Origin: Siphonodentalium dalli
Taxonomy: Eukaryota > Mollusca > Scaphopoda > Gadilida > Siphonodentaliidae
Direction of reading: 5' to 3'
Assembly: GCA_032622095.1 (NCBI GenBank)
Contig: CP136061.1
Location: 249,065,582-249,129,581, forward strand
DNA: 64,000 nt
In this document: positions 1,001 to 20,775 of the stretch, in pieces
Position numbering within the stretch: the first letter of the stretch is position 1
Layout of the letters: every line of letters begins with the position of its first letter
Translations under genes and position numbers: made by a program
Notes under the pieces: generated by a model
Seen by the model: only the letters and a program-made list of their open reading frames with translations
Told to the model about the DNA's origin: nothing
The model's database searches: none

Positions 1001-1655
1001 ATGAATGAAATATTATTTATTCATGAAAATGTGTAATTTAATTCAAACGAAATCTGCCCTATCTATATGCAAATGGGCATGGTTCAACAACAGAACGGCC
1101 TGGTTAGGCCTTTACTGAATATTGAAACATGTTCCATGATTTCTAGCACTGCAAGCGACTGGATGAAGTCTTAATGATGCAACCTACTCTTGTGGAGTTT
1201 TGAAAGGAAGCACCCTGAGAGAAGAAAGCACAGGGCTTTTAACCTCTCAAGTGAAAACCAAAACATGGGTTGCGATTGGATCTAAATCAATTGTTTATCG
1301 ATTAAATCCAATGGCAAACCATGAAAAATAACCAAGTGTAAACGAAACGATCTGATTGGGTAAGCCTTGACTTTTTGAACCAATCAGAGAAACCGATACG
1401 AAATTTGAAGGCGAACACACCAAAATGTCGGACTCTCGGAGCTCCGCAAAATACATCGAAAATACGAGATAATAATTGTCATAGATCGAATACACAATTG
1501 CAATTTTATACATTAATTTGCTGAAACATATTTTAGATGTCCGATCAGGAATAAACCACACAGGTAAGTCACTAGGTACACAAATCAGTTCTGAAATGGC
1601 TGCTTAACTGTAGCAAGAATCGCACGTTGGGAAATAGGTACACAAATCAGTTCAG
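1001..1655. other. Non-coding stretch, LTR edge to transposon
   Basis: There is no supported gene. A short phrase, 'ggtacacaaatcagttc', occurs twice (about 1575 and 1638), the second copy directly beside the transposon insertion point. The 88-codon minus ORF at 1295-1561 has no recognisable domain and is probably chance. Confidence 0.4.
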
Positions 1656-1658
1656 AAA
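1656..1658. repeat. Target site duplication AAA, left copy
   Basis: AAA directly precedes the left inverted repeat, and AAA at 9040-9042 directly follows the right one. A 3-bp duplication of a homopolymer is weak evidence on its own, but it fits exactly the two inverted-repeat edges. Confidence 0.55.
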
Positions 1659-1896
1659 CCAGGTCTGGCAAATGTGAGAATACAGCTACAATAGCTGTAT
1701 TCAGCTAACCTAGCTGTATTCAGCTATATATTCTACTCTCAAAGCGGTGGTTTTTCGTTAATTAACAGGACGCGCTAATTTGCGCATCTAAATTAGGTGA
1801 CCCTATTCTCGACTTACTTTTTACCAAATCAGAACCGTCATTTGCTTTGTGACATAATGTTGCCTTTTGTCGATACAGCGATACTGTTTTTGTTTG
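1659..1896 (+). repeat. Left 238-bp terminal inverted repeat
   Basis: It matches the reverse complement of 8802-9039 without a gap. Beyond 1896 the arms diverge at once. Near the outer edge it carries two copies of the phrase 'tagctgtattcagcta' and, further in, the palindrome GTTAATTAAC. These subterminal repeats are candidate transposase-binding sites. Confidence 0.92.
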
Positions 1897-2344
1897 AAAA
1901 CTTAATATGGCGACCAATGTCGGTCATAACGGTTTAATAACCCTCTTACCAATGCGGAATATCATTAAAACTATATTAAAAGCAATCTTTATCGCCGAAA
2001 ATGAAATGTCTAACAATTTCCGGAAGTAGCAATAGGATAATTCTAAAACGAAGTTTGAAGGCCGGCTTAAAATTAGTAAAAAGGGAACATCTCGAGCCAG
2101 AGATTAATTGAGCGAGTACATCTCACAACTTTCTCCGAAAGTACGGAAACTCATACTTGTAACTGTGAGTGTGACTCGCAAAAATACATAACTTCAACGT
2201 TTCTTGTGTATGTAGACATGGCATTTGAAGAAAAATTATGTCCTTGCGTGAGTTAGACAACAAGCAATCACAATAGCGTGCTGGAAAATGCTGAGTGCGC
2301 TTGAATAGGGGCTTCATGCAATGCGTGGCACAAATCAGTCACAC

Positions 2345-2359
2345 GATTTGGTCCAAATC
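2345..2359. promoter_or_regulatory. Palindrome resembling paired CArG half-sites, upstream of the MADS-PHD gene
   Basis: GATTTGG and CCAAATC are 7-bp inverted arms around one central T. MADS/SRF proteins bind CC(A/T)6GG boxes, of which CCAAAT is a half. The palindrome lies 130 bases upstream of the start codon of a MADS-type gene, so autoregulation is conceivable (inference). Confidence 0.25.
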
Positions 2360-2402
2360 ATGAATTGAGTGATCAAATTCATCCGATTATTCCCGGCTGG
2401 GG

Positions 2403-2440
2403 TATTTAATGCAGCGTTTTTGTCGCGTCGTGTTCCATTC
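2403..2440 (+). promoter_or_regulatory. Candidate TATA box and initiator for the MADS-PHD gene
   Basis: TATTTAAT at 2403-2410 is followed about 30 bases later by an initiator-like TTCCATTC (2433-2440), about 50 bases ahead of the ATG at 2489. The spacing is normal for an RNA polymerase II core promoter. Confidence 0.3.
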
Positions 2441-2488
2441 TGCGACCTAAACAATCACAAATCGGAAGTTATATAGAAGAACTCGAAA

Positions 2489-5400
2489 ATGGTAAGTTAA
2501 ATTAAATGTATAACTTTATAATGTCATCAATCCATTATAGATTAAAGTTGGCATATAAGATCCACATAAGTACAGAATCAATATAAATAACAATGGATAT
2601 CTTATTTGTATTGTATGTTTATATAATGTAAATGCATTAGCATGTTGGTAATAGACTGTTCGTTGTAAGCAGGTATCATACTTAGCTTCCATCATTTTTG
2701 AATTTGTTTCAGAACTAATCAGATTCCAGTGGTGGCATATCTGGGTCCGAGTCGCTCTCCTGGTCCTCTATAATTGGTTCTGGAAAATAACACGAAAACA
2801 TAGTATTTATTTTATGATAAGTGACTGCCAGTGTACAAAACATCCCATGAGTATAAACACAAAACCATAAAATGATAATCATGTTTTTGCTCATTTCAGT
2901 CAAAACGAAATGCAAACGATGCAGTTCTGTTCGAATGTAAAAAAGGCAGAAACACCAACCCAGGAAACAACACAAAGGGTCAGGCACCTCGTGCGAAAAC
3001 TCAAGCGACTGGTCCTCGTAAAATTGAATACATCACTGACAGTTCGAGACGAGCACAGTGCCTCAGCAAACGGATACGGACATTATTCAAAAGTGTGAGT
3101 ATTATATTGACTGATATATAGACATATCGATAGAATCACATAACTATAACGTACCATCATAACTTGCTTCGCGGTCGGCAGCAAAGCGTTGCCTCAACCC
3201 ATCAATTGTTTCATCAATTTGGACCACCAATTTTACCAGCGTTTCTTTTTTTGCACGTTTCGCAGCAACCCACGCTTCCGAAAACTGCTTGTGTAGATCT
3301 TCGATCCCTGCCCTTTTCAAAAGCTCCAGTTTCTCTTTCGTCATTGAATTTAATTCAGCCTTCGTTTTGCACTGCATGCTCTCTGAATTGAATATAATGG
3401 TTTAATGCTCAATGCCTTCATTTTAAAGTTGAACATTTACAAAAACTTATATGTAGACGAGATATCATATTTTTTCACAAGTATTACCTGCTTTCCTCCT
3501 ATCCTCCTCAGTAACAACTACCCTTTCGATGGGAGCGCCTCTATAATCACAATGGTCGAACACATAGTCTATATACACCATCCTATTGGTCACACTTTGG
3601 TTATGGATGGTGGACAGATCCCCATCTAGCGTTGGTGCTGTCGCTCCGATGGCTTGTACTGGTCGTGTTATCTGTAACAAACAATACATTTCATGTGATA
3701 GAGAGAACGATAAACCGGAAGATCAGGAGAGATGAGATGAGGAATAAAATACTAACATAAATATAAAATGATTTATACGCTGGAAACAATTCAACAAGCA
3801 CAAAGATGTAAAAAAAAAATATTCTGAAAATGGCTTCCAAAATGGCAATTCGATTATGTCGCTTTCAAATGAATCAGTGTGATTACAATATTTCGCTTGT
3901 TTATCCACAGAGTGTTTAGTTACAGGGTTAGAAAGCTCACTGGCCAATGGGGTTACAAACACGCACCTTTGAGTCAGCAACATAATCCGCATTACGAAGT
4001 ATCTGTCGCCAGTGTGCTATTTCCTTGGAAATGTCCGTTTTCCGCAATTCCTTTCTTTCGCCATCATTAGTTTTTCCAGTCTGTTCTTCAATATTTTTGC
4101 GTATCTGCGTATGGAAATGATTTATTCAAGTATGTTTTATTTTTAGCTCAATGAAATTTGTACCCAAACTGGCATGGAGGCGTACTTAGAAATAAAAACC
4201 CCCAGCTCAGCAGGGTACTACTGGGCGACGCCAGAAATGGGAGTGAAACATGGAGTGGAAGTAAGTATATTTTGATGTTATTATAAAGCTTGTGTGTAAT
4301 ATTTCAAATAAATTCAACGTTAAAAATGTTCATAAAGAAATATAGAATATCTCACAGGAGTTTCTATATTATACGGAATTTATCAAGCGAGTTCACTAAA
4401 TTCGATTTGAGCTGAGGTTTACCAAGGCTGAAATAGAATTTAGTAGACGAGATTGATAACTTACGTATAAAATAGAACGATTTTGAGACACATTTTATCA
4501 CATGATAAAATAAACGCGAAACAATCAGAAGTATTCATACAAAATAACAACCATAAACTGATAAACTTCAGCAATCGCTAGTCATTCAAATAATGGCGTG
4601 ACGTCATCGCACGCGCTAATATTACACGTGTATCTTACCAAGGATTACGAAGCTGGTTTTGTGGGTTTATTATGTGATACATATATATAACAACAAAATA
4701 TATATTTATTTTGAAATTCCTTTTTATACCGATTGTGCATTAACCACAGTGCACGCTGCCAGTGCCTTAACATAACTATTGGCCATCTATGATCCATAAA
4801 GATCAACACATGTTATTAAGTGACGATGTTCATACAATCTGAACCTACATTCAATGTCAATCTCCGAATCCAATGATGTATAATGAATATGCACGAAACA
4901 ACCAAAGTGGTTTGAATTCTTATGTTATGGCGCCTGTTTTATATGCTAGGTGGAGAGTAACTCCAATAACAACGAGGAGACACCACGGGCGGTAGCACTT
5001 ACTGAGACTACAGCAGCACCACCATCCGCCATAGAAATAGACCACCCATACGTACAACCAGAACCAGAGAGCGAAGTGATGAGTCCGCCATCCCCGAGCC
5101 ACATTACAACGTACCGGGATGTTGAATCCCAGTGGTGTGAAGAGGCCATCGCCGGCATAAAAATTTGTCGAGAATGCGCTGCGATATGGGAGGACGAGAC
5201 AGTCGAAGAAGAGCGATGGCTTGGGTGCGATATGCCACCAGAAGGGACCTGTGACTACTGGGTACACGCAAAATGCCAGGGCTACCCGTTGCTCACAGAT
5301 GAACAGGCTGACAGACTTGATTTTCTCTGTCCAAAGCACAGGTAAGCACTAAATAACACAAGTCCCCCACAACATAAATAGCATTGTGAAATAGAATAGT

Positions 5401-6024
5401 ACAACTCAAATTATTTAACTACTATTTGTCCTTATTAAAATGGATTTGTTTCAGTTTGGCAGTTTTACAAGGTCATTGTCACTCATGTGATTTCTTCATA
5501 ATAACACAATAACAATAAGAGGAACATGTTGAAATATTTATTACTATACGAAAATTACTTTAATATGAATGGTCTGTATGTTTTATGCCTGTATTATAGC
5601 AATCAAGATAATTATTGGGGGGGGGGGGGGTAAACCACTTCAGAATATAAGACAACGGTCACTAAATTGGACGTAAATGAATCTTGAACTATATAAATAT
5701 ATTTCGCGCTGTAAAATCCCATGCAAGTGGCTGCATGTATCAGTAAAATGATTTTTGTTTCGGAGATGGCTTCCAGAATGGCCGCAAAGCTATTGTGTTC
5801 TAATCCACCGCTAATGATATGCAATATATTCTGTTTTGTTCCAAAGAGATCTACCTTCTCAAAATGCAACGAAATTAGCGAGGCAAGAAAAGCAACCGTT
5901 AGAGACTGCTGTTCGGGGAAGAGGAAGAGGTTCGGGACGAGGCGGTGGCAACAGGGGGCGCAGGCCAAGAGTTCGTGGCGGCAGAGGAACTGGAAGAGGG
6001 AGACAAGAAGATAACAATAAATAA
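2489..6024 (+). CDS. MADS/SRF-type DNA-binding domain plus PHD finger protein with RG-rich tail, transposon-encoded (5 exons, 293 aa)
   Basis: Proposed exons are 2489-2491 (the ATG alone, then GTAAGT), 2900-3094, 4147-4260, 4950-5341 and 5847-6024. All junctions are GT-AG and phases agree (0, 0, 0, 2). Residues about 40-100, split across exons 2 and 3, align without gaps to the MADS box of SRF: PRKIEYI, SKR at 57-59, then a helix and strand region with the TG of 'TQTG' and YYWATPEM, matching the SRF motifs KIKMEFI, FSKR, TLTG and VYTFATRKL. Exon 4 has a Pro/Glu-rich linker, then a zinc-finger pattern C177, C180, C197, C205, H210, C213, C231, H234 with Trp two residues before H210. This is PHD-like, with His as the last ligand. 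Residues 235-293 are Arg/Gly-rich (RG and RGG repeats). AATAAA overlaps the stop. The role is inferred: element-encoded DNA- and chromatin-binding factor. Confidence 0.75.
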
Positions 6025-8165
6025 ATATAGACACGTATTTCTTATAAAAATTACTGGATTCTTACCTCGTCCAAGTCGTCTACGCCACGACACAGCTCCA
6101 CCCATCTCTCTTCCGAAGGCAACCCAGGTGGTAGCCACGCTTTTAGCTTTTTGTTCCGCCCTTCCAAAACAAAGTCCCCACCTTCACCTTTGCTCGAGTG
6201 GCCAGACAGAGAAAACGCCAAATTTTTATCCACTAATAGTCGCACATCGTCTGGCATCAACACTCTTGTAAATGTATATCGTAGATAAATTTCACGATAA
6301 TTCGGAGAATTGGTCAAGAAAAATAGAAGGCAAAGTTTTGTCAAAGCAGCATTAATAATTATGGAATTGTTCCTTCTTATACCAGCCCTGAATAGATCAA
6401 ATGCGAATAAATATGTAAATGTCATTTTGAACATGAATTTCAAATTTAAATTGTGGCTCTTTTGAACATAATTATAAAGTCCTTCTTCCGAAACATTTTC
6501 ACTGCACACATTAGCATGTTGAATATAATTGGTAAGAATTTCATCCCTGGTGCCATTAAATAGAATCTGTAAAATTTGCCATGATTTATGGTGATCAGAG
6601 CACTTTAAACAGGTAGACATAGCCTTAGGCGACTTAAAGCCTAACATGTCTGCCAAATTGCACACAACAATGTCCCAGTATATTTTAAAAAACGATTTCA
6701 CCAAGTTTATTTCAAAATGTCCAAAACCTGGCATCACAAGAATGTCCCCATACTTCCTATCAGAAGGCTCAATTGTATACCCCTTGATAGCATGGGACTT
6801 AAGTTGGTGTTCAATAAATGCAACATCACCCGTAAACTCAAGAGAACACTGTCTACACTGAAACATAGTGTCAATGAGTCTATGTGCCAGTGTGTACGGT
6901 GACCCATCACAGCCAAGGATAGTCCACGCCCGACCACTAGGATGGGTTGATGCATTCAATAGTTTATCCAATATTATTGTCACAGAATCGTATCCATTTG
7001 GATTGACAAATATAGGTTCACCTAAAACAGCAGCTGGTGGTGAAATTGGATGGCAGCTGTCTACAAATGAATACTTATCATTTTTCGGAGCACATGACGT
7101 TTCAAATGTGGGCTTTGAATCTGAGAATTTCACAATATTAACTTTATCACTTGAAGTCGTAGTCGTAGAATTACTGGTTACCAGCTCCTTTAAGACAATA
7201 TCAATATATTTGGATCGTTCGGTTCGGAAACAAATTTCATCATTTTCGATAACAGTTTTAACTTTGCAGAACAGCGACTTCCGTTCAGAACATTTTATGA
7301 AATTCCACTGCATGGGCGAAAGAGAACTTTCCCACTGAAGCTTAGACATTGCATCGGGTATTAGATGCAAAACATTTGTCATAACACTCAACGTTGGCTT
7401 TGAATTATCCACCACCCTCCACCTCTTGCCGAGAACCTGATTGTTATCGAAAAAAGTTATGACATCACCTTCATCCGGAACCACGTTTGGCACATTACCA
7501 TTTTCAGAGATCCATTTTCGTATGGTGGTATGGGAACCTGAAGGCCGAACATTGGCGTTCAAACCACAAATTGTTTTACTCCCGGTCAAATAGTGAGTCA
7601 ACAAATTTAATGAGAATGAAAATGGTCCTATATAATTTACACATCTTGAATTTATGATTTGTTCCATTGATAAACACAAAGAATTCAATTTCCGTGGACT
7701 GCTTGATGGAGAACAAGTAGTGACTCCGAGAAGAAATTTACAAATTGTTTGGTTTTGCGAGGTTAACCAAACGGAGGTAGAAAACTGTTTTAAATAATTT
7801 ACATTGTAACATCCAACTGTTCCACTTTTCCCTCTATCCAACACATCATCACTTTGACTTTTTCCCAACTCAAATGCTAACAGTTGTAGTTGATCGGGCG
7901 AAAGTTTTCCCTCTCGAATTGCCGTTAAAACTTCATTAAAAGCATCAGTCTCACGAGAGTTGTTATCCACAAGAGTACCATTTTGAGAAAAATTTACACA
8001 GGCGGTGCACAGCCACCGGAACCGGGCAGACAGAAAACCCTGAGAAATTAGTCCATCAGTTTCAGATTTCTTAAATTTTTTGTGGTCTCTTCCATGGAGA
8101 GTGAAAGTCTTACCCTGAGAAAATTCAGCGTGTTTAGTACAGGAACAGTTTCGTGTCGGTGGCAT
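2715..8165 (-). CDS. Transposase-like protein of the 7.4-kb element (5 exons, 904 aa)
   Basis: Proposed minus-strand exons are 8165-6066 (700 codons), 4104-3967, 3671-3488, 3382-3155 and 2779-2715 (TAG). All introns are GT-AG and phases agree (0, 0, 1, 1). The N-terminus has a Cys cluster (CSCTKH near 7-12, CTAC at 53-56). Candidate catalytic acids are D420 in GCDGSPY, H483/E485 in PGFGHFEIN and E668 in VLEGRNKK; this D…H/E…E order resembles RNase-H-fold transposases (inference). A C2H2 finger (C437, C440, H453, H458) sits between the first two. The tail is acidic (ESDSDPD). I do not recognise the superfamily; DUF6589-like proteins share the 'GxFH…E…N…K' layout. The large 6065-4105 intron contains three exons of the opposite-strand gene. 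It is the likely recombinase because it is the only large gene between intact ends. Confidence 0.72.
5618..5631 (+). repeat. Poly-G run inside the last intron of the MADS-PHD gene
   Basis: An uninterrupted run of about 13 G lies in the 5342-5846 intron. It is a G-quadruplex-prone or slippage-prone tract and has no further meaning that I can support. Confidence 0.7.
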
Positions 8166-8801
8166 GCTCTATTGTAAGATGAACGTTCCAAATTTTCAGG
8201 TGGAATAAACAAGGTCGGTATCACCCCCATGTTATGTTTGATATGAATCCACAAACTAGCCAATCGTGTGCGTTTATTTTGAGAAACTCATAGCAAAAAA
8301 GTTGTGCATGAGCTAGTATTACATGTTTTGGGGAATACTGCCATTTGATTGGCGAAATCCCACGTCGGCAGATCGGATTAGGACTCGACGGCCATGCATG
8401 GGCGATAATCTGTGGAAGAATTGTTACTATTTCGGGCCAAAACTCACCAGAGAAGGCTTCTCTTGATACATTTGACTCTTCACTTACACAAGAAATTCTT
8501 CAAGTCACAAATTATGTATAGTTGTCTATATGATGTGCCATACTTTCATAATGTACCGCTTAATATCTGTAGATACCGTTACAAATAGTACGCTGCATCG
8601 TTCAATAAACGTTACTCGTAAGTAAATTTAAATGCTTGAGATGTGTACTGCATTTCAACGCGAACTTCCGGTTTGGGAGCAGGAAGAAATATGGATGAAT
8701 TGTGAGAGAAAATATCTTTATTTCCAAGCTATTTAACGATTCGATAGCATAGAAAATAGTACCAGGTTTATTTCCTCCGCCCACCATAAGTGGTTACTTT
8801 A
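8166..8801. other. Transposon right internal flank (putative transposase promoter region)
   Basis: This is non-coding sequence upstream of the minus-strand transposase-like start. No strong TATA box was identified. The small ORFs here (8048-8263 and 8602-8787, minus) have no domain. Confidence 0.4.
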
Positions 8802-9039
8802 CAAACAAAAACAGTATCGCTGTATCGACAAAAGGCAACATTATGTCACAAAGCAAATGACGGTTCTGATTTGGTAAAAAGTAAGTCGAGAATAGGGTCA
8901 CCTAATTTAGATGCGCAAATTAGCGCGTCCTGTTAATTAACGAAAAACCACCGCTTTGAGAGTAGAATATATAGCTGAATACAGCTAGGTTAGCTGAATA
9001 CAGCTATTGTAGCTGTATTCTCACATTTGCCAGACCTGG
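8802..9039 (-). repeat. Right 238-bp terminal inverted repeat
   Basis: It is the reverse complement of 1659-1896 with no difference found by eye. The outer end reads …TTTGCCAGACCTGG and is followed by AAA, the second copy of the target duplication. Confidence 0.92.
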
Positions 9040-9061
9040 AAACGGCAGCGCCCGTCACAGT

Positions 9062-13439: not shown

Positions 13440-14404
13440 CTTACCGGTATGCAACATCAGGCCACTCTGATGTTAGAACATTTTCTCGCACATATCACAT
13501 TGATACGGGCGATCCCCTCGTGTGGATCTTCTTATGCGTTGTCAGGTTACTCGATTGAGTAAATGATTTCTCGCAAACATCACATTGATACGGTCGATCC
13601 CCAGTGTGTATCCTCATGTGTATAGTCAGGTCACTCGACTGAATAAATGATTTCTGGCACACATCACATCGAAACGGACGATCCCCAGTGTGGACCATCT
13701 TATGCATTGTCAGGTTACTCGAGTGAGTAAATGATTTCTCGCACACATCACATTGATACGGCCGATCCCCTGTGTGTATCCTCATGTGTATAGTCAGGTC
13801 ACTCGACTGAATAAATGATTTCTGGCACACATCACATCGAAACGGACGATCCCCAGTGTGGACCATCTTATGCATTGTCAGGTTACTCGGCTGAGTAAAT
13901 GATTTCTCGCACACATCACATTGATACGGCCGATCCCCTGTGTGTATCCTATTGTGTATCGTCAGAGTACCTAATTGTGAAAATGATTTCTCGCATAAAT
14001 CACATTGATGCGGGCGAGTCCCCGTGTGGGTTAACGTATGCATCGTCAGTGTACTCAAACGAGCAAATGATTTCTCGCACACATCACACCGATATGGGTT
14101 ATCCTCAGTGTGGATCTTCTTATGTTTCGTGCATAGTCAGGTTATTCGACTGCGTAAATGATTTCTCGCATACATCACAACGATACGGCCTATCCCCAGT
14201 GTGTATCCTCTTATGCATAGTCAGGTTACTCGACTGAGTAAATGATTTCTCGCATACATCACATCGATATGGCCGATCCCCAGTGTGTATCCTCATGTGT
14301 ATAGTCAGGTCACTCGACTGAATAAATTATTTCTGGCACACATCACATCGAAACTGACGATCCCCAGTGTGGACCATCTTATGCCTCGTCAGGTTACCCA
14401 ATTG
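13440..14404 (-). pseudogene. C2H2 zinc-finger array, decayed 3' part
   Basis: Continuing the array below, this segment encodes about nine further 28-residue fingers (CDVCEKSF…H…H with TGDRP linkers). Reading is broken by the TAA at 14405-14407, a second TAA at 14327-14329 (both at the Ser of 'KSF'), a 7-bp excess near 14121-14135 that looks like two finger versions joined, and a frameshift near 13512 just before a further degraded finger. Six complete fingers remain open between 14082 and 13495. The mutations at the same codon type suggest relaxed constraint rather than sequencing error, though errors cannot be excluded. Confidence 0.7.
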
Positions 14405-15937
14405 TTAAAATGATTTCTCGCATAAATCACATTGATGCGGGCGAGCCCCCGTGTGGGTTAACTTGTGCATCGTCAGTGTACTCAAACGAGCAAATGATTT
14501 CTCGCACACATCACATCGATACGGGCGATCCCGAGTGTGGATCTTCTTATGTTTCGTCAGGTCACTCGACTGAATAAATGATTTCTCACACACATCACAT
14601 TGAAACGGGCGATCTCCCGTGTGTATCCGCTTGTGTATCGCCAGGCTATTCAAATGAGTAAATGATTTCTCGCACATATCACATTGATACGGACGATTTC
14701 CCGTGTGTATCCGCTTGTGTATAATCAGGCTACCCGACTCGGTAAATGATTTATCGCAAACATCACATTGAAACGGACGATCCCCGGTGTGGATTCTCTT
14801 ATGTTTCGTCAGGTCACTTAACTGAGTAAATGATTTCTGGCACACATCACATTGATACGGGCGATCTCCCGTGTGTATCCGCTTGTGTGCGGTCAGGCTA
14901 CTCGACTCAGTAAATGATTTACCGCAAACATCACATTGAAACGGACGATCCCCGGTGTGAATTCTCTTATGGATGGTCAGTGTACTAGACTGAGTAAATG
15001 ATTTCTCGCACACATCACATCGATATGGGCGATCCCGAGTGTGGATCTTCTTATGTTTCGTCAGGTCACTCGACTGAATAAATGATTTCTCGCACACATC
15101 ACATTGAAACGGGCGATCTCCCGTGTGTATCCGCTTGTGTATCGCCAGGCTATTCAAATGAGTAAATGATTTCTCGCACATATCACATTGATACGGACGA
15201 TTTCCCGTGTGTATCCGCTTGTGTAAAATCAGGCTACCCGACTCGGTAAATGATTTATCGCAAACATCACATTGAAACGGACGATCCCCGGTGTGGATTC
15301 TCTTATGTTTCGTCAGGTCACTTAACTGAGTAAATGATTTCTGGCACACATCACATTGATACGGGCGATCTCCCGTGTGTATCCGCTTGTGTGCGGTCAG
15401 GCTACTCGACTCAGTAAATGATTTATCGCACACATCACATTGATACGGACGATCCCCAGTGTGGATCCTCTTATGGCTCGTCAGGTTACTCGACCAAGTA
15501 AATGATTTATCGCACACATCACATTGATACGGACGATCCCCAGTGTGGATCCTCTTATGGCTCGTCAGGGTACCAGACTGAGTAAATGATTTCTCGCACA
15601 CATCACATTGAAACGGACTATCCACGATGTGGACCATCTCATGTTGAGTCAGATGACTCGAGTCAGTAAATGATTTATCGCACACATCACATTGATACGG
15701 ACGGTCCCCAGTGTGGATCCTCTTATGGCGCGTCAGGGTACCAGACTGAGTAAATGATTTATCGCATACATCACATTGAAACGGACGATCTACGGTGTGG
15801 ACCTTCTTATGTTTCGTCAGATGACTCGAGTCAGTAAATGATTTATCGCACACATCACACTGATACAGGCGATCCCCAGCGTGGATCCTCTTATGTTGCG
15901 TCATGGTACTAGACTCAGTAAATGATTTATCGCACAT
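14405..15937 (-). CDS. C2H2 zinc-finger array, 17 complete fingers (possibly part of a pseudogene)
   Basis: A 510-codon frame on the minus strand made entirely of Krüppel-type fingers, Cys-x2-Cys-x12-His-x3-His, with linkers HTGDRP(Y/F) close to the canonical TGEKP. Seventeen fingers are complete; the first lacks its first Cys and the last ends in TAA after CEKSF. Fingers 7-11 and 13-17 are almost identical, showing a recent duplication of a six-finger (504-bp) block. No N-terminal effector domain (KRAB, BTB, ZAD) is visible. Upstream, TAA at 15944-15946 and a frameshift near 15970-15985 interrupt further finger-like sequence, so the Met at 15937 is probably internal. Function would be sequence-specific DNA binding in the nucleus, if expressed. 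Confidence 0.65.
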   Translation of the reverse strand: MCDKSFTESSTMTQHKRIHAGDRLYQCDVCDKSFTDSSHLTKHKKVHTVDRPFQCDVCDKSFTQSGTLTRHKRIHTGDRPYQCDVCDKSFTDSSHLTQHEMVHIVDSPFQCDVCEKSFTQSGTLTSHKRIHTGDRPYQCDVCDKSFTWSSNLTSHKRIHTGDRPYQCDVCDKSFTESSSLTAHKRIHTGDRPYQCDVCQKSFTQLSDLTKHKRIHTGDRPFQCDVCDKSFTESGSLILHKRIHTGNRPYQCDMCEKSFTHLNSLAIHKRIHTGDRPFQCDVCEKSFIQSSDLTKHKKIHTRDRPYRCDVCEKSFTQSSTLTIHKRIHTGDRPFQCDVCGKSFTESSSLTAHKRIHTGDRPYQCDVCQKSFTQLSDLTKHKRIHTGDRPFQCDVCDKSFTESGSLIIHKRIHTGNRPYQCDMCEKSFTHLNSLAIHKRIHTGDRPFQCDVCEKSFIQSSDLTKHKKIHTRDRPYRCDVCEKSFARLSTLTMHKLTHTGARPHQCDLCEKSF

Positions 15938-16080
15938 ATCACATTAATAGGAGCGATCTCCCGTGTTGATACTTTTTTATGTGACAGCAAATTTGCAGAT
16001 GTGCCGCGTGATTTCCAGTATATATCGCACTGATATAAATGAACAGCCGTTTGCTTTGTCTTATTGTGCAAACTGCTTAA
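15938..16080 (-). pseudogene. Degenerate 5' fingers of the C2H2 array
   Basis: Frame-shifted reading gives QCDIYWKS…LLSHKKV, a finger that has lost its second Cys, and then a TAA where the next finger would have Gln. Together with the broken 3' part this argues that the locus is a pseudogene at both ends. Confidence 0.55.
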
Positions 16081-17409: not shown

Positions 17410-18511
17410 CCCCCCCCCCCCTCAGATTCTTTGCTGAGGTTCCTGCCAATTTTCATGTCACACCTCAGACATAGATGCGAACGCCTCTAAATGGTGTGTC
17501 AACGCCGAAGTATTTTTGCCGATTCTTTTGAAAGAGGAATTTTGTAAAAAAGACTGTGAGATCCGATACTGCGATATATCTCCATTGTGCAATTTTCCGT
17601 GGTGTGGAATCGACATCAGGCATGACTGCTGGTTGGGGTTTGCTGTATTTCCCAACATCAGCAAACGCTGTCACGAGTCTAAAACCTCCATTTGGTTTCT
17701 TAATCAGGAATGACGCGTTGATGTACTCCACCACCACACCTCTGGTATTCTGAATACACCCAGTTTCTCTAACTCGTCGAATTTGTCTTGTAGCTCTACC
17801 AGCTTATACCGAGAATACTGTGGCACATGATCCCTTCGCTGTGGCGGTTGTACGGGCCCCATATTAACAACGGTCTCAAATTTTCCAAAGGCGCTATTGT
17901 ACCCCGGGAACTTGGTATCGGATACGGTATAGTAGTCAGCCAACGCAGCAAACAGTTCTTCTTTCACTTTAGGCGGAAGAATGCAGTCCGGATCGACAAT
18001 GACAGCATGTGAATGCAGAATATCTTGGTATAGTCCATTTGGTTGAGACTCACGACCTGTAGTGACAGATACATTCATTGGTCGATTGATATTCGACGTC
18101 TCTGTATGTGAAGCATAGTAGTCTATGACAGACCTTTCGCTTGCGACAGGTACGATTTGACCGAAATGTTCATTCTTTCGCAAATTTACCATTTTACCTG
18201 TATCATTGCTTATTCTTATCTTCCTCCCTACGGCTTGTATGATGCCGGGGATTGGCCATTGTCGTGTTGCATGGTTAGTTTCGTCTAACCGGGGTTCGAT
18301 GGCCAGTACTGAATCGAGATCAAGATTGTCTGGAAATCCGAGTTCGAGATATTCTCCTGACCACAGCGTTGTCTTAGGAGCACGAAGTACGTTAGTTCGC
18401 CTAACAGCATGAGGACCTCGTGACTTGGTCTGGTGACTGCATGAGAAGGATTTATTGCCGATAGTAACCATTTCTTTCGCGGGTCGTACACTAATATCAA
18501 TAGTTGTCATG
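17410..18511 (-). pseudogene. Ty3/Gypsy-like pol relic (protease C-terminus, linker and N-terminal reverse transcriptase)
   Basis: The minus strand encodes a pol segment: 'LPPKVKEELFAAL', '[15 protein letters not shown]', then after a frameshift near 17737 '[20 protein letters not shown]', '[19 protein letters not shown]' and '[10 protein letters not shown]'. These are the first reverse-transcriptase blocks of Gypsy-type elements, including the D-L-T that precedes the catalytic region. The Y-x-D-D block is absent and the reading degrades below 17460, so it is truncated and inactive. Confidence 0.75.
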
Positions 18512-18514
18512 GAC

Positions 18515-18840
18515 GGTACTCCCACCGAAAGCGACAAAATATGCGATATTAGCGCATGTTTCGGCGCGCCGAAAGCGACAAAATGTGCGCCGTAACGGTG
18601 CACATTTTGTCGCTTTCGGCGCGTTACTAATGGCGCACTTTTTGTCGCTTTCGGCGCGCACCGAAAGCGCCATTAGGTATACTATTAGGTCCACTCCCTA
18701 ATGGCGCGCGCCTGAAGCGACAAAAAGTGCGCCATTAGGGTATGTTTCGGCGCATTTTTTGTCGCTTTCGGCGCGTTACTAATCGCGCACTTTTTGTCGC
18801 TTTCGGCGCGCGCCGAAAGCGCCATTAGCAAGTGGCCCTA
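18515..18840. repeat. Palindromic repeat cluster (core CGAAAGCGACAAAA and complement)
   Basis: At least seven copies of a core CGAAAGCGACAAAA, in both orientations, occur with GGCGCGC and 'gccattag/ctaatggcgc' phrases. Neighbouring copies form inverted repeats able to fold into long hairpins. The cluster interrupts the Gypsy relic between its gag/protease and pol parts. No ORF of its own. Confidence 0.8.
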
Positions 18841-18849
18841 ATAGGATTC

Positions 18850-19840
18850 CATAGTTTAGGACTGGTGATTTCTTCACTTGTACTCGCCGCGCATTCGAAT
18901 GGTCGACTGATGTGCGTACGTTGTCATCGGGACACTCTGTGTCTATATATCTCTCCTAATTCGTCGTCTTCACATATCATAATTGATCGTGTCCTTGTTT
19001 TGAACCGTTTATCGCTAGCAGGGAGGAATGGACATTTGCTCAAGAAATGGAAGAAGTCTGTTCGGTTTGCTTGCTTAAACAAAGGGACACGACTATATTT
19101 TCAAGTCTTTCGGATGAATTGTTGCACTTGACCTTTCTGTTGAATACATTCTCTGTTTAGTCATAGATCGAATTATCTTAAAATCAGTGCCTTTGCGACT
19201 TCGTCTAACAAGGAGTCCAGTGCCAGAGATATATCCTGCTTTATGAACGCAAGGGATTCAGAACGCAGCTCAGTCCCGTATCTTTGTTTTACACGTTTCG
19301 GTAGGTTCGGATGTAGTAAACGTAACCAGGTAAAAGCGATCATGTTCTCCAGTGTTGTTGTCATTTCTTCATCTTCATCGGGTGTCTCCCCGTGGTGCGA
19401 AATCACACTATCAGCCTTCAACAAAGTGACGTCAACGAATGCAGATATACGCTGAAACAGGTCCTGGGGACTTTCATCTGGTTCAAGCGATGAAATGACC
19501 CCCGGTGGAACTGAATCTGTAATGCATGCGAATCGTCTGGCACACATTTTCGAGGGAAGTTGATGTCTTAACAATATCACTCCGTGATAGTACTGGGCAA
19601 AAGTTCGCAATTTGACCGAACATAATTGTAACTTTCTGTTCTGCCGTTTTTCTGGTCCCAGCAGGCACCCCATCGCCATCATCGACAAAACCACGGAGCG
19701 GCGTGTTCTTCGTCCTTTTCTGCCATATGACCCCGGGGATGAGGAATTTTGCGAAGTTTTCATCACATGTTAATGAATAATGTAAATTTGATAGCCAACT
19801 TTCAAACGATGTTACTGTATCTGTTTTGTTAATGACCACT
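18850..19840 (-). pseudogene. Ty3/Gypsy-like gag relic with decayed zinc knuckle
   Basis: Minus-strand frames show capsid-like sequence, FESWLSNLHYSLTCDENF and 'ESPQDLFQRISAFVD', 'LRLLHPNLPKRVKQRYGTEL', then a nucleocapsid-type knuckle near 19000-19100 ending HFLSKCPF in which upstream Cys positions are changed. Frameshifts (near 19500) and stops separate the pieces. It lies in the correct gag-before-pol order with the pol relic, so both came from one element. Confidence 0.65.
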
Positions 19841-20775
19841 GCTTTGGAGTGCGATTGGCAGCACTGTTACCTTAGAGATCAAACGAAACAGCAATGTGCT
19901 CACACACCGTGTCGATATTTCTTCCGCTACGTCGTAATTAGTCGACAAGGTTGTCCGAAACCCCCGATTTTTTGGGGTTATTTCCCGTATTTTAGTCAAC
20001 GAAGTCGTACCATATAAGGTATGATGCCACCACGCCAATATGGTAAATAACTAGGAAACGTTTGGAACTACCCAAGGGGTGATTGAATCTATAACAATGT
20101 GATTTGCAGAGAGAATAATATTATGCTGTCTAGCAAGAGGTTATAAGCAACTAAATAATTAAAATTATGCCCCTTGGCATTTGTGTAGGGAAACTCGAGT
20201 CAGCATATAACAAAATACCGGCAGCTGAATGGTGTATAATATATTCGGTTGTTTAATGTTAATTCCTCGGCCATTTGTGTGGGATTGTTCGTCAAGCGTC
20301 TACATTGGTCGCCAAATTTGGTAGGGGTGGGGGTATTTTTCTATACTGAAATTTTGTGCACAAAAGGGGGTAGTTGTGGAAAGGCAAATTTATTTCCAGT
20401 AATAAGTATGGTAAGACACCATTTCTTTTTTGACTACTTATGTCCGACGTGGATTTATATACGCAAAAATATTTGAAGTTTGGCTCAGTATGGTAATGAA
20501 TAGTGGGCATGGCTTAACCCTAACACTGTCGCCTATGGGAAATATTTAGTTGATTGTAACCTATAATCACAAATCGTGTTTTGTTGTATCATCGGCTTGT
20601 ATGGCAACGGGGTGCAGATTTTGGCCACCAGTCAAATCAAATCCAAGAGTGAACAAAATTAGGGACCCAAAGCGTGTCGCAGCGCCACATAATCTGACAA
20701 CTTAACCCTTTGCAACAAAATTCAGATTGTATGCCCAAAAATGGGTGTTTCGTTAAAATGAATTATTTGGGACAG
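19841..20775. other. Non-coding
   Basis: No supported gene. A short inverted phrase around 20000-20035 (ACCATATAAGGTATGATGCC) is the only structure noted. Confidence 0.35.

Follow-up and report, generated by a model that had tools for sequence, protein, structure and literature searches.

Why would a DNA transposon of a scaphopod mollusc carry a MADS domain, and what might such a protein do for the element that encodes it? The question is raised by a 64,000-nucleotide stretch of the Siphonodentalium dalli genome (contig CP136061.1, forward-strand positions 249,065,582 to 249,129,581; hereafter the window, with positions counted from its first base), in which a sequence-only reading had placed, at 2489-6024, a transposon-borne gene encoding a MADS-like segment, a PHD finger and an arginine-glycine (RG)-rich tail. 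We find that positions 1660-9038 constitute a complete DNA transposon with two genes: one strand encodes a DUF6589-like transposase, and the opposite strand an interdigitated gene for a MADS, PHD-like and RG protein. The earlier reading had recognised that a transposon carries this gene, while missing the SRF source of its MADS domain, the interdigitated antisense transposase, the 5-base-pair (bp) target duplications and the palindromic arrays at the ends.

The element measures 7,379 bp and has the termini CAGGTC...GACCTG; near-full-length copies bearing these ends occur at other sites of the genome. The inverted repeats between which the gene had been said to lie are indeed intact, being identical at 241 of 242 positions (1659-1900 versus 8798-9039), and the element proper is delimited to 1660-9038 because the target site duplication GAAAC fixes its boundaries (Table 1). 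A 3-bp duplication, AAA, was dropped for the window element in favour of the 5-bp GAAAC after comparison with other copies. Duplications of 5 bp are present at five of the six copies of which both ends were read (the window element, L037, L039, L040 and L041), and at the sixth, L038, no target duplication is visible.

The plus-strand gene comprises five coding exons, bordered by GT..AG at all four junctions and joined in frame into a product of 293 amino acids (aa) that ends with TAA, as the proposed set of phase-compatible exons had implied. Against the Pfam SRF-TF profile, with a cut-off of 26 bits, the whole product scores 27.4 bits (E 2.3e-6) and the 66-aa MADS segment 31.1 bits (E 1.6e-7). 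Exon 2 alone reaches 15.9 bits (E 0.009) and exon 3 alone has no match; since neither exon passes by itself, it is the 3094/4147 junction that creates the match. SRF is also the best match in the PDB, with weak one-to-one scores (E 0.018 for the whole product, 0.028 for the segment), MCM1 being the sole other molecule retrieved with the segment. Aligned to SRF of PDB entry 1hbx, the segment runs over 61 residues without gaps, 17 of them identical, which agrees with the gap-free MADS-like segment of the earlier reading. In 200,000 shuffles of the residues, the ungapped BLOSUM62 score of this alignment, 60, was never reached, the highest value being 25; the top score among 6,551 unspliced windows free of stops, taken in six frames, was 13, and among 77,607 in-silico spliced windows a score of at least 55 arose at the 3094/4147 junction only.

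Downstream of the MADS segment, eight zinc ligands are arranged in a PHD-type order, C-C-C-C-H-C-C-H, and with PHD-type spacing, Cx2Cx16Cx7Cx4Hx2Cx17Cx2H, a histidine replacing the usual cysteine as the last ligand. Of the PHD finger that had been claimed, the ligand order thus stood, but the Pfam PHD scores of exon 4 (22.2 bits, E 1.5e-4) and of the whole product (20.1 bits) miss the cut-off of 24, for which reason we call the finger PHD-like. Its assignment to the RAG2 type was rejected: a single weak PDB match to RAG2 (E 0.26) was lost when the PHD stretch was searched alone, and the ligand spacing agrees with neither RAG2 pattern of PMC7204232. A single-sequence structure model of the finger, all-helical with a mean pLDDT of 64, was likewise discarded. 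The RG/RGG tail, also named by the earlier reading, is seen directly in the translation of exon 5. An NCBIfam search returned nothing, and pattern matches for relatives in viral contigs, found in 1, 1 and 91 stretches, yielded no confirmed case.

From which family of animal MADS genes the domain came is indicated by its intron. An SRF-TF search of the host genome gave four matches, two of them MEF2 exons and the other two the exons of a single SRF gene; the search runs exon by exon, and it is no count of MADS-bearing copies because the element's own MADS exons are not among its matches. In the host SRF gene, a 3,872-bp intron splits the MADS-coding exons in phase 0, the first ending with ...SKRKTGIMKK and the next beginning with AYELSTLTG. 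Exon 2 of the element ends with ...SKRIRTLFKS and exon 3 begins with LNEICTQTG, again in phase 0, so that the element intron (3095-4146) occupies the identical codon boundary and phase, a coincidence expected by chance within the MADS domain in about 1 in 168 cases. This shared position inside a gap-free alignment supports the predicted 3094/4147 junction and argues for descent from an intron-bearing SRF gene instead of a processed copy. Judged by this comparison, the MADS domain of the element descends from an animal SRF gene along with its intron. The assignment to SRF over MEF2 follows the intron, whose position and phase match host SRF and differ from host MEF2, the exons of which start at a different point, VTFTKRK. 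Residues separate the two clades poorly, 16 of 56 being identical to SRF and to MEF2 alike; the alignment score is 66 against host SRF and 45 against a MEF2 sequence that includes 16 residues from outside the host loci. When the comparison is restricted to the 40 residues available from host loci, 11 agree with SRF (score 43) and 12 with MEF2 (score 33). The two host MEF2 exons themselves lie 169 kb apart on one contig (L001 and L002; G000:C3:231731514-231734633 and 231900395-231903514), representing either a local duplication of MEF2 or an alternative exon. For comparison, two SRF-TF genes are listed in an acoel (PMC6451197) and one to four in each of eight table columns of a hydrozoan genome paper (PMC7642931).

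The transposase on the minus strand has 904 aa encoded by five exons, with the stop at 2715. Its first exon retrieved eight relatives (E 2e-87 to 2e-123), the four with names coming from oysters and an ark clam, and D240, D420 and E542, unchanged in all nine sequences, are probably the catalytic residues. The DUF6589 profile (PF20231) scores 19.4 bits against the transposase, missing its cut-off of 27, which is passed by one of the eight relatives (P0004, 33.3 bits). Exons 2-4 are supported because the later exons match, in the expected succession, the C-terminus of one relative, the Tegillarca protein P0006 (BLASTP E 3e-8, phmmer domain E 7.9e-6). A structure model of the transposase was poor (mean pLDDT 58.5), and a Foldseek search with this weak model listed only matches with E above 1, headed by the P element and RAG; DUF6589 is not mentioned in the literature searched, which covers few subscription journals. 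Together, the ten coding exons of the two strands occupy 2489-8165 in an antisense, interdigitated arrangement without a single shared base, the exons of either gene lying in introns or flanks of the opposite-strand gene. The two genes start at opposite ends of the element, each about 0.6 kb inward of the inner edge of one repeat.

Table 1. Features of the transposon, in window coordinates.
Feature	Position	Strand	Remark
Left target site duplication, GAAAC (5 bp)	1655-1659		
Left terminal inverted repeat	1660-1900	+	one base trimmed to accommodate the target duplication
Left palindromic array	1678-1726		alternating half-sites CAGCTA/TAGCTG
MADS-PHD gene, coding exon 1 (ATG only)	2489-2491	+	GT..AG borders retained in 6/6 other near-full-length copies
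MADS-PHD gene, exon 2 (first half of MADS domain)	2900-3094	+	Pfam match begins near 3029
MADS-PHD gene, exon 3 (second half of MADS domain)	4147-4260	+	MADS to about 4239
MADS-PHD gene, exon 4 (linker and PHD-like finger)	4950-5341	+	finger at about 5166-5339
MADS-PHD gene, exon 5 (RG/RGG-rich tail and stop)	5847-6024	+	AATAAA at 6016 overlaps its end
Transposase exon 5 (stop, acidic end)	2715-2779	-	outside the P0006 match
Transposase exon 4	3155-3382	-	P0006 match
Transposase exon 3	3488-3671	-	P0006 match
Transposase exon 2	3967-4104	-	tail homologous to Tegillarca protein P0006
Transposase exon 1 (putative catalytic region)	6066-8165	-	DUF6589 below threshold
Right terminal inverted repeat	8798-9038	-	mate of the left repeat
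Right palindromic array	8972-9020		same array as at the left end
Right target site duplication, GAAAC (5 bp)	9039-9043		

Whether the gene belongs to the element as a family was addressed in the host assembly (2.23 Gb in nine contigs, the window lying in contig C1), where 40 of 1,643 candidate places found with the left repeat were scored, copy numbers being lower bounds, and 19 copy stretches were retrieved and compared with the window element. At least 0.96 of the element is present in six of them (L037-L042). No exon of either gene is missing from any of the six, and L038, L041 and L042 have small deletions within exons. The occurrence of the same gene in other copies had been set beforehand as a test of the sequence-only reading; with the gene in all six near-full-length copies compared, the SRF-TF match and the intron of host SRF, its claim of a MADS-PHD-RG gene carried as cargo or accessory is supported, with the finger qualified as PHD-like. 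Most of both genes is retained in L046 and in the 13%-diverged L043. Among the remaining 11 stretches, several of which cover 8 kb from one end so that the far end may fall beyond them, the plus-strand gene is partial in four (L044, L045, L047 and L050) and lacking in seven. L037-L040 differ pairwise by 0.19-0.27% over 1901-6060 and, being near-identical at separate sites, indicate recent movement of the family. Further variants were seen: L039 has an additional 1.56 kb inserted near window position 4818; L048 (G000:C6:142847949-142849065) is a non-autonomous copy of about 0.9 kb consisting of both ends only; and in the diverged L050 (G000:C5:86126675-86134675) an internal part is repeated, transposase exon 1 and the region of plus-strand exon 5 being matched two to three times.

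The ends of the element are built from the half-sites CAGCTA and TAGCTG, spaced by 3 and 4 bases. The array includes a palindrome with 11-bp arms, GAATACAGCTA CAA TAGCTGTATTC, and two TAGCTG-TATT-CAGCTA palindromes with 6-bp arms, 19 bp apart. When the repeat was shuffled 200 times with its dinucleotides preserved, no arm exceeded 9, compared with the 11 observed. In L054 and L055, the outermost 70 bases of either end equal those of the window element at 70 of 70 positions, as against 127-137 of 165-171 for the remaining repeat. Across 19 ends of 11 loci matching the first 10-14 bases, the array is unchanged in most, while L039, L043 and L046 depart from it at one to three positions. This is the pattern that a shared site needed for movement would show, and the palindromes would suit a dimer. 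L054 and L055 represent families in which the outermost 70 bp (1660-1730) are unchanged and the remaining repeat is about 75-80% identical, as if shared end sites had been mobilised in trans. Relaxed CArG-like sites, observed versus expected, number 4 versus 2.8 in the element, 1 versus 0.08 in the 242-bp repeat and 2 versus 0.25 in 1659-2488, and each repeat contains the one-mismatch CArG-like site CTAAATTAGG (1788-1797 and 8901-8910). In addition, the array core CTG-TATT-CAG resembles the MEF2 site format, CTA-W4-TAG, with one change per half, which serves as a lead only.

Integrity and selection bear on whether the protein is of use to the element. The plus-strand frame is intact in four of seven near-full copies (the window element, L037, L039 and L040), whereas L038, L041 and L042 have it disrupted; the transposase frame is intact in five of seven (the window element and L037-L040). 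The ratio of nonsynonymous to synonymous divergence (dN/dS) of the plus-strand gene against L041, L042, L043 and L046 is 0.25, 0.27, 0.25 and 0.27, respectively (one-sided Fisher p 2.3e-5, 5.6e-6, 3.3e-10 and 7.0e-7), and with CpG-touching codons excluded 0.32, 0.35, 0.36 and 0.40 (p 6.3e-3, 5.0e-3, 3.6e-4 and 3.8e-3). For the MADS core alone, p is about 0.5 for L041 and L042, 0.003 for L043 and 0.035 for L046; for the PHD core alone, the signal is clear only for L043 (p 1e-4), the other copies giving p 0.09-0.35. The transposase has dN/dS values of 0.37, 0.43 and 0.25 against L041, L042 and L043, the value against L046 (0.71) not being used on account of a misaligned part of exon 1. Present in every near-full-length copy compared, the plus-strand gene is a member of the element family and bears a signature of amino-acid-level constraint, with the caveat on exon and intron divergence set out below.

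Our preferred account, which we hold with moderate confidence, is that the MADS-PHD protein acts as an accessory factor that would bind the ends of the element as well as chromatin, comparable to RAG2 except for a DNA-binding domain of the SRF type. A MADS dimer would sit on the palindromic arrays of the two ends, which lie upstream of the two genes, the PHD-like finger would contact histone H3 tails, and the RG tail would bind nucleic acid; such an accessory subunit might then help to build the transposition complex or direct it to its target, and tune how the element is transcribed. In a more far-reaching version, which we put forward only tentatively and regard as less likely than not, the SRF domain, captured with its intron, would have become a dedicated transposition subunit (MADS on the array, PHD on H3), the two genes would cross-regulate each other through their antisense units, and the protein would represent an independent counterpart of RAG2. 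Several observations weigh against an accessory role of this kind. The conserved end array might equally be the transposase's own site, the PHD profile is missed, R143, the arginine with which SRF contacts the minor groove, is without an aligned counterpart in the MADS segment, and the element contains no perfect CArG or MEF2 site. CTAAATTAGG is kept in the window element and L037-L040 and altered in L041, L042, L043, L046, L048, L054 and L055, older copies mostly carrying CGAAATTAGG or CAAAATTAGG in its place, and the CArG-like site was set aside as a basis for argument, not being retained in these older copies. The last PHD ligand is altered in L043, itself a broken copy. Furthermore, measured against introns free of the other gene's exons, the plus-strand exons together are about 2-4 times more diverged than introns in L041, L042 and L046, with the higher rate at synonymous sites; exon 4 differs by 5.4% in L041 (adjoining introns 2.6% and 2.9%) and by 6.4% in L042 (2.1% and 1.9%), and in L043 the excess is not clear. 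In L041 and L042, dN of the gene is about equal to or above intron divergence. Because exons outpace introns, the low dN/dS depends on an unexplained high synonymous divergence, for which CpG change accounts in small part, and the compared pairs have common ancestry and are not independent.

The same features can be read in other ways. The protein might mainly be a transcription or anti-silencing factor of the element acting outside the transposition complex, which we consider rather unlikely, although an SRF-derived domain with a PHD-like finger would be suited to it, a near-identical end sequence lies 5' of both genes, the ends of ProtoRAG drive and regulate expression of both its RAG-like genes (PMC7481187), and an anti-silencing function has been proposed for fungal DNA transposons carrying TET/JBP genes (PMC12730594). 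However, the array in the outermost 70 bp is near-invariant even in the non-autonomous L048 and in L054 and L055, which points to transposition, with the reservation that the binder could be the transposase. It is improbable that the gene is passive host cargo, with an SRF fragment and a PHD exon being transported without serving the element. DNA transposons are known to capture genes, and exons outpacing introns in three of the four diverged copies would fit such cargo, whereas the frame intact in four of seven near-full copies, the retention of all plus-strand splice sites in five of the six others, the dN/dS of 0.25-0.27 and the presence of exons 3-5 also in the 13%-diverged L043 speak against it. 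Chance similarity or a splicing artefact as the origin of the MADS match is highly improbable: it could be invoked on the grounds that neither MADS exon passes the Pfam cut-off alone, that the gene model is known from sequence alone, and that a search of 5.8 billion proteins gave no homologue of the product to E 10 (a search relying on exact five-residue words, one run of which drew just six candidates, so that absence elsewhere is not implied), but the level of similarity was matched by no shuffle and by one spliced window, and the intron position agrees with host SRF as to both codon and phase.

The proposed accessory role invites comparison with known two-component systems, among which the RAG2-like protein of ProtoRAG is the closest parallel in function (PMC4411706, PMC7204232, PMC7481187). 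Like the RAG2-like proteins of ProtoRAG and TransibSU, the MADS-PHD protein is the second protein of an oppositely oriented two-gene transposon with inverted repeats and 5-bp duplications (PMC4411706, PMC7204232), 5 bp being the target duplication of Transib and ProtoRAG (PMC4411706). A PHD finger occurs in many RAG2-like members (PMC4411706, PMC7204232), and one RAG2-like PHD binds H3 (PMC7204232); the element protein has a PHD-like finger. Unlike the RAG2-like protein, that of the element has an SRF-type MADS domain and no kelch match in the Pfam search, and its transposase partner has no Pfam match to the Transib/RAG1 transposase core. The ends of the element, CAGGTC, also differ from the Transib heptamer. 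Academ elements are long DNA transposons common in bivalves (PMC10294476), and the window element is likewise long; its 5-bp target duplication fits neither AcademX (3-4 bp) nor AcademH (9-10 bp) (PMC10045372), and neither of its genes has a nuclease or helicase match in Pfam. These sequence comparisons give no support for placing the element in Transib or Academ. Compared with animal SRF, the MADS domain of the element is gap-free over the 61 aligned residues and has the host SRF intron, and it differs in being fused to PHD-like and RG parts and in being mobile. DNA-binding helpers separate from the transposase are found in the Myb-like protein of Harbinger and in TNPA of En/Spm; the present element would resemble these in pairing a transposase with an accessory DNA-binding protein, its helper consisting of MADS and PHD-like domains. 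Finally, as in fungal DNA transposons with TET/JBP genes, a chromatin-related host gene appears to have been captured, an enzyme in that case and a putative DNA-binding reader in an animal here (PMC12730594).

Elsewhere in the window, the minus strand at 13482-15970 encodes a long C2H2 zinc-finger array from an 84-bp tandem unit (29.5 copies, TRF), and open frames at 17704-19866, also on the minus strand, resemble by eye decayed retroelement gag/pol, two of them giving no Pfam match when searched. Scanning the window against Rfam, and for tRNAs under the bacterial code, returned nothing.

DNA transposons whose helper proteins bind DNA or read chromatin are already known as a kind. Among the papers listed by our literature searches, which cover few subscription journals, neither a MADS-bearing DNA transposon nor an SRF-derived MADS-PHD helper is described. 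Animal MADS domains are few, and a mobile lineage derived from SRF would show a transposon recruiting a core host regulator together with its DNA-binding mode. The capture is traceable because the intron is common to the element and SRF, and the mechanism is directly testable because the element offers palindromes at its ends, intact copies and paired genes. Likewise, the element lends itself naturally to comparison when the question is how the RAG1-RAG2 pair arose.

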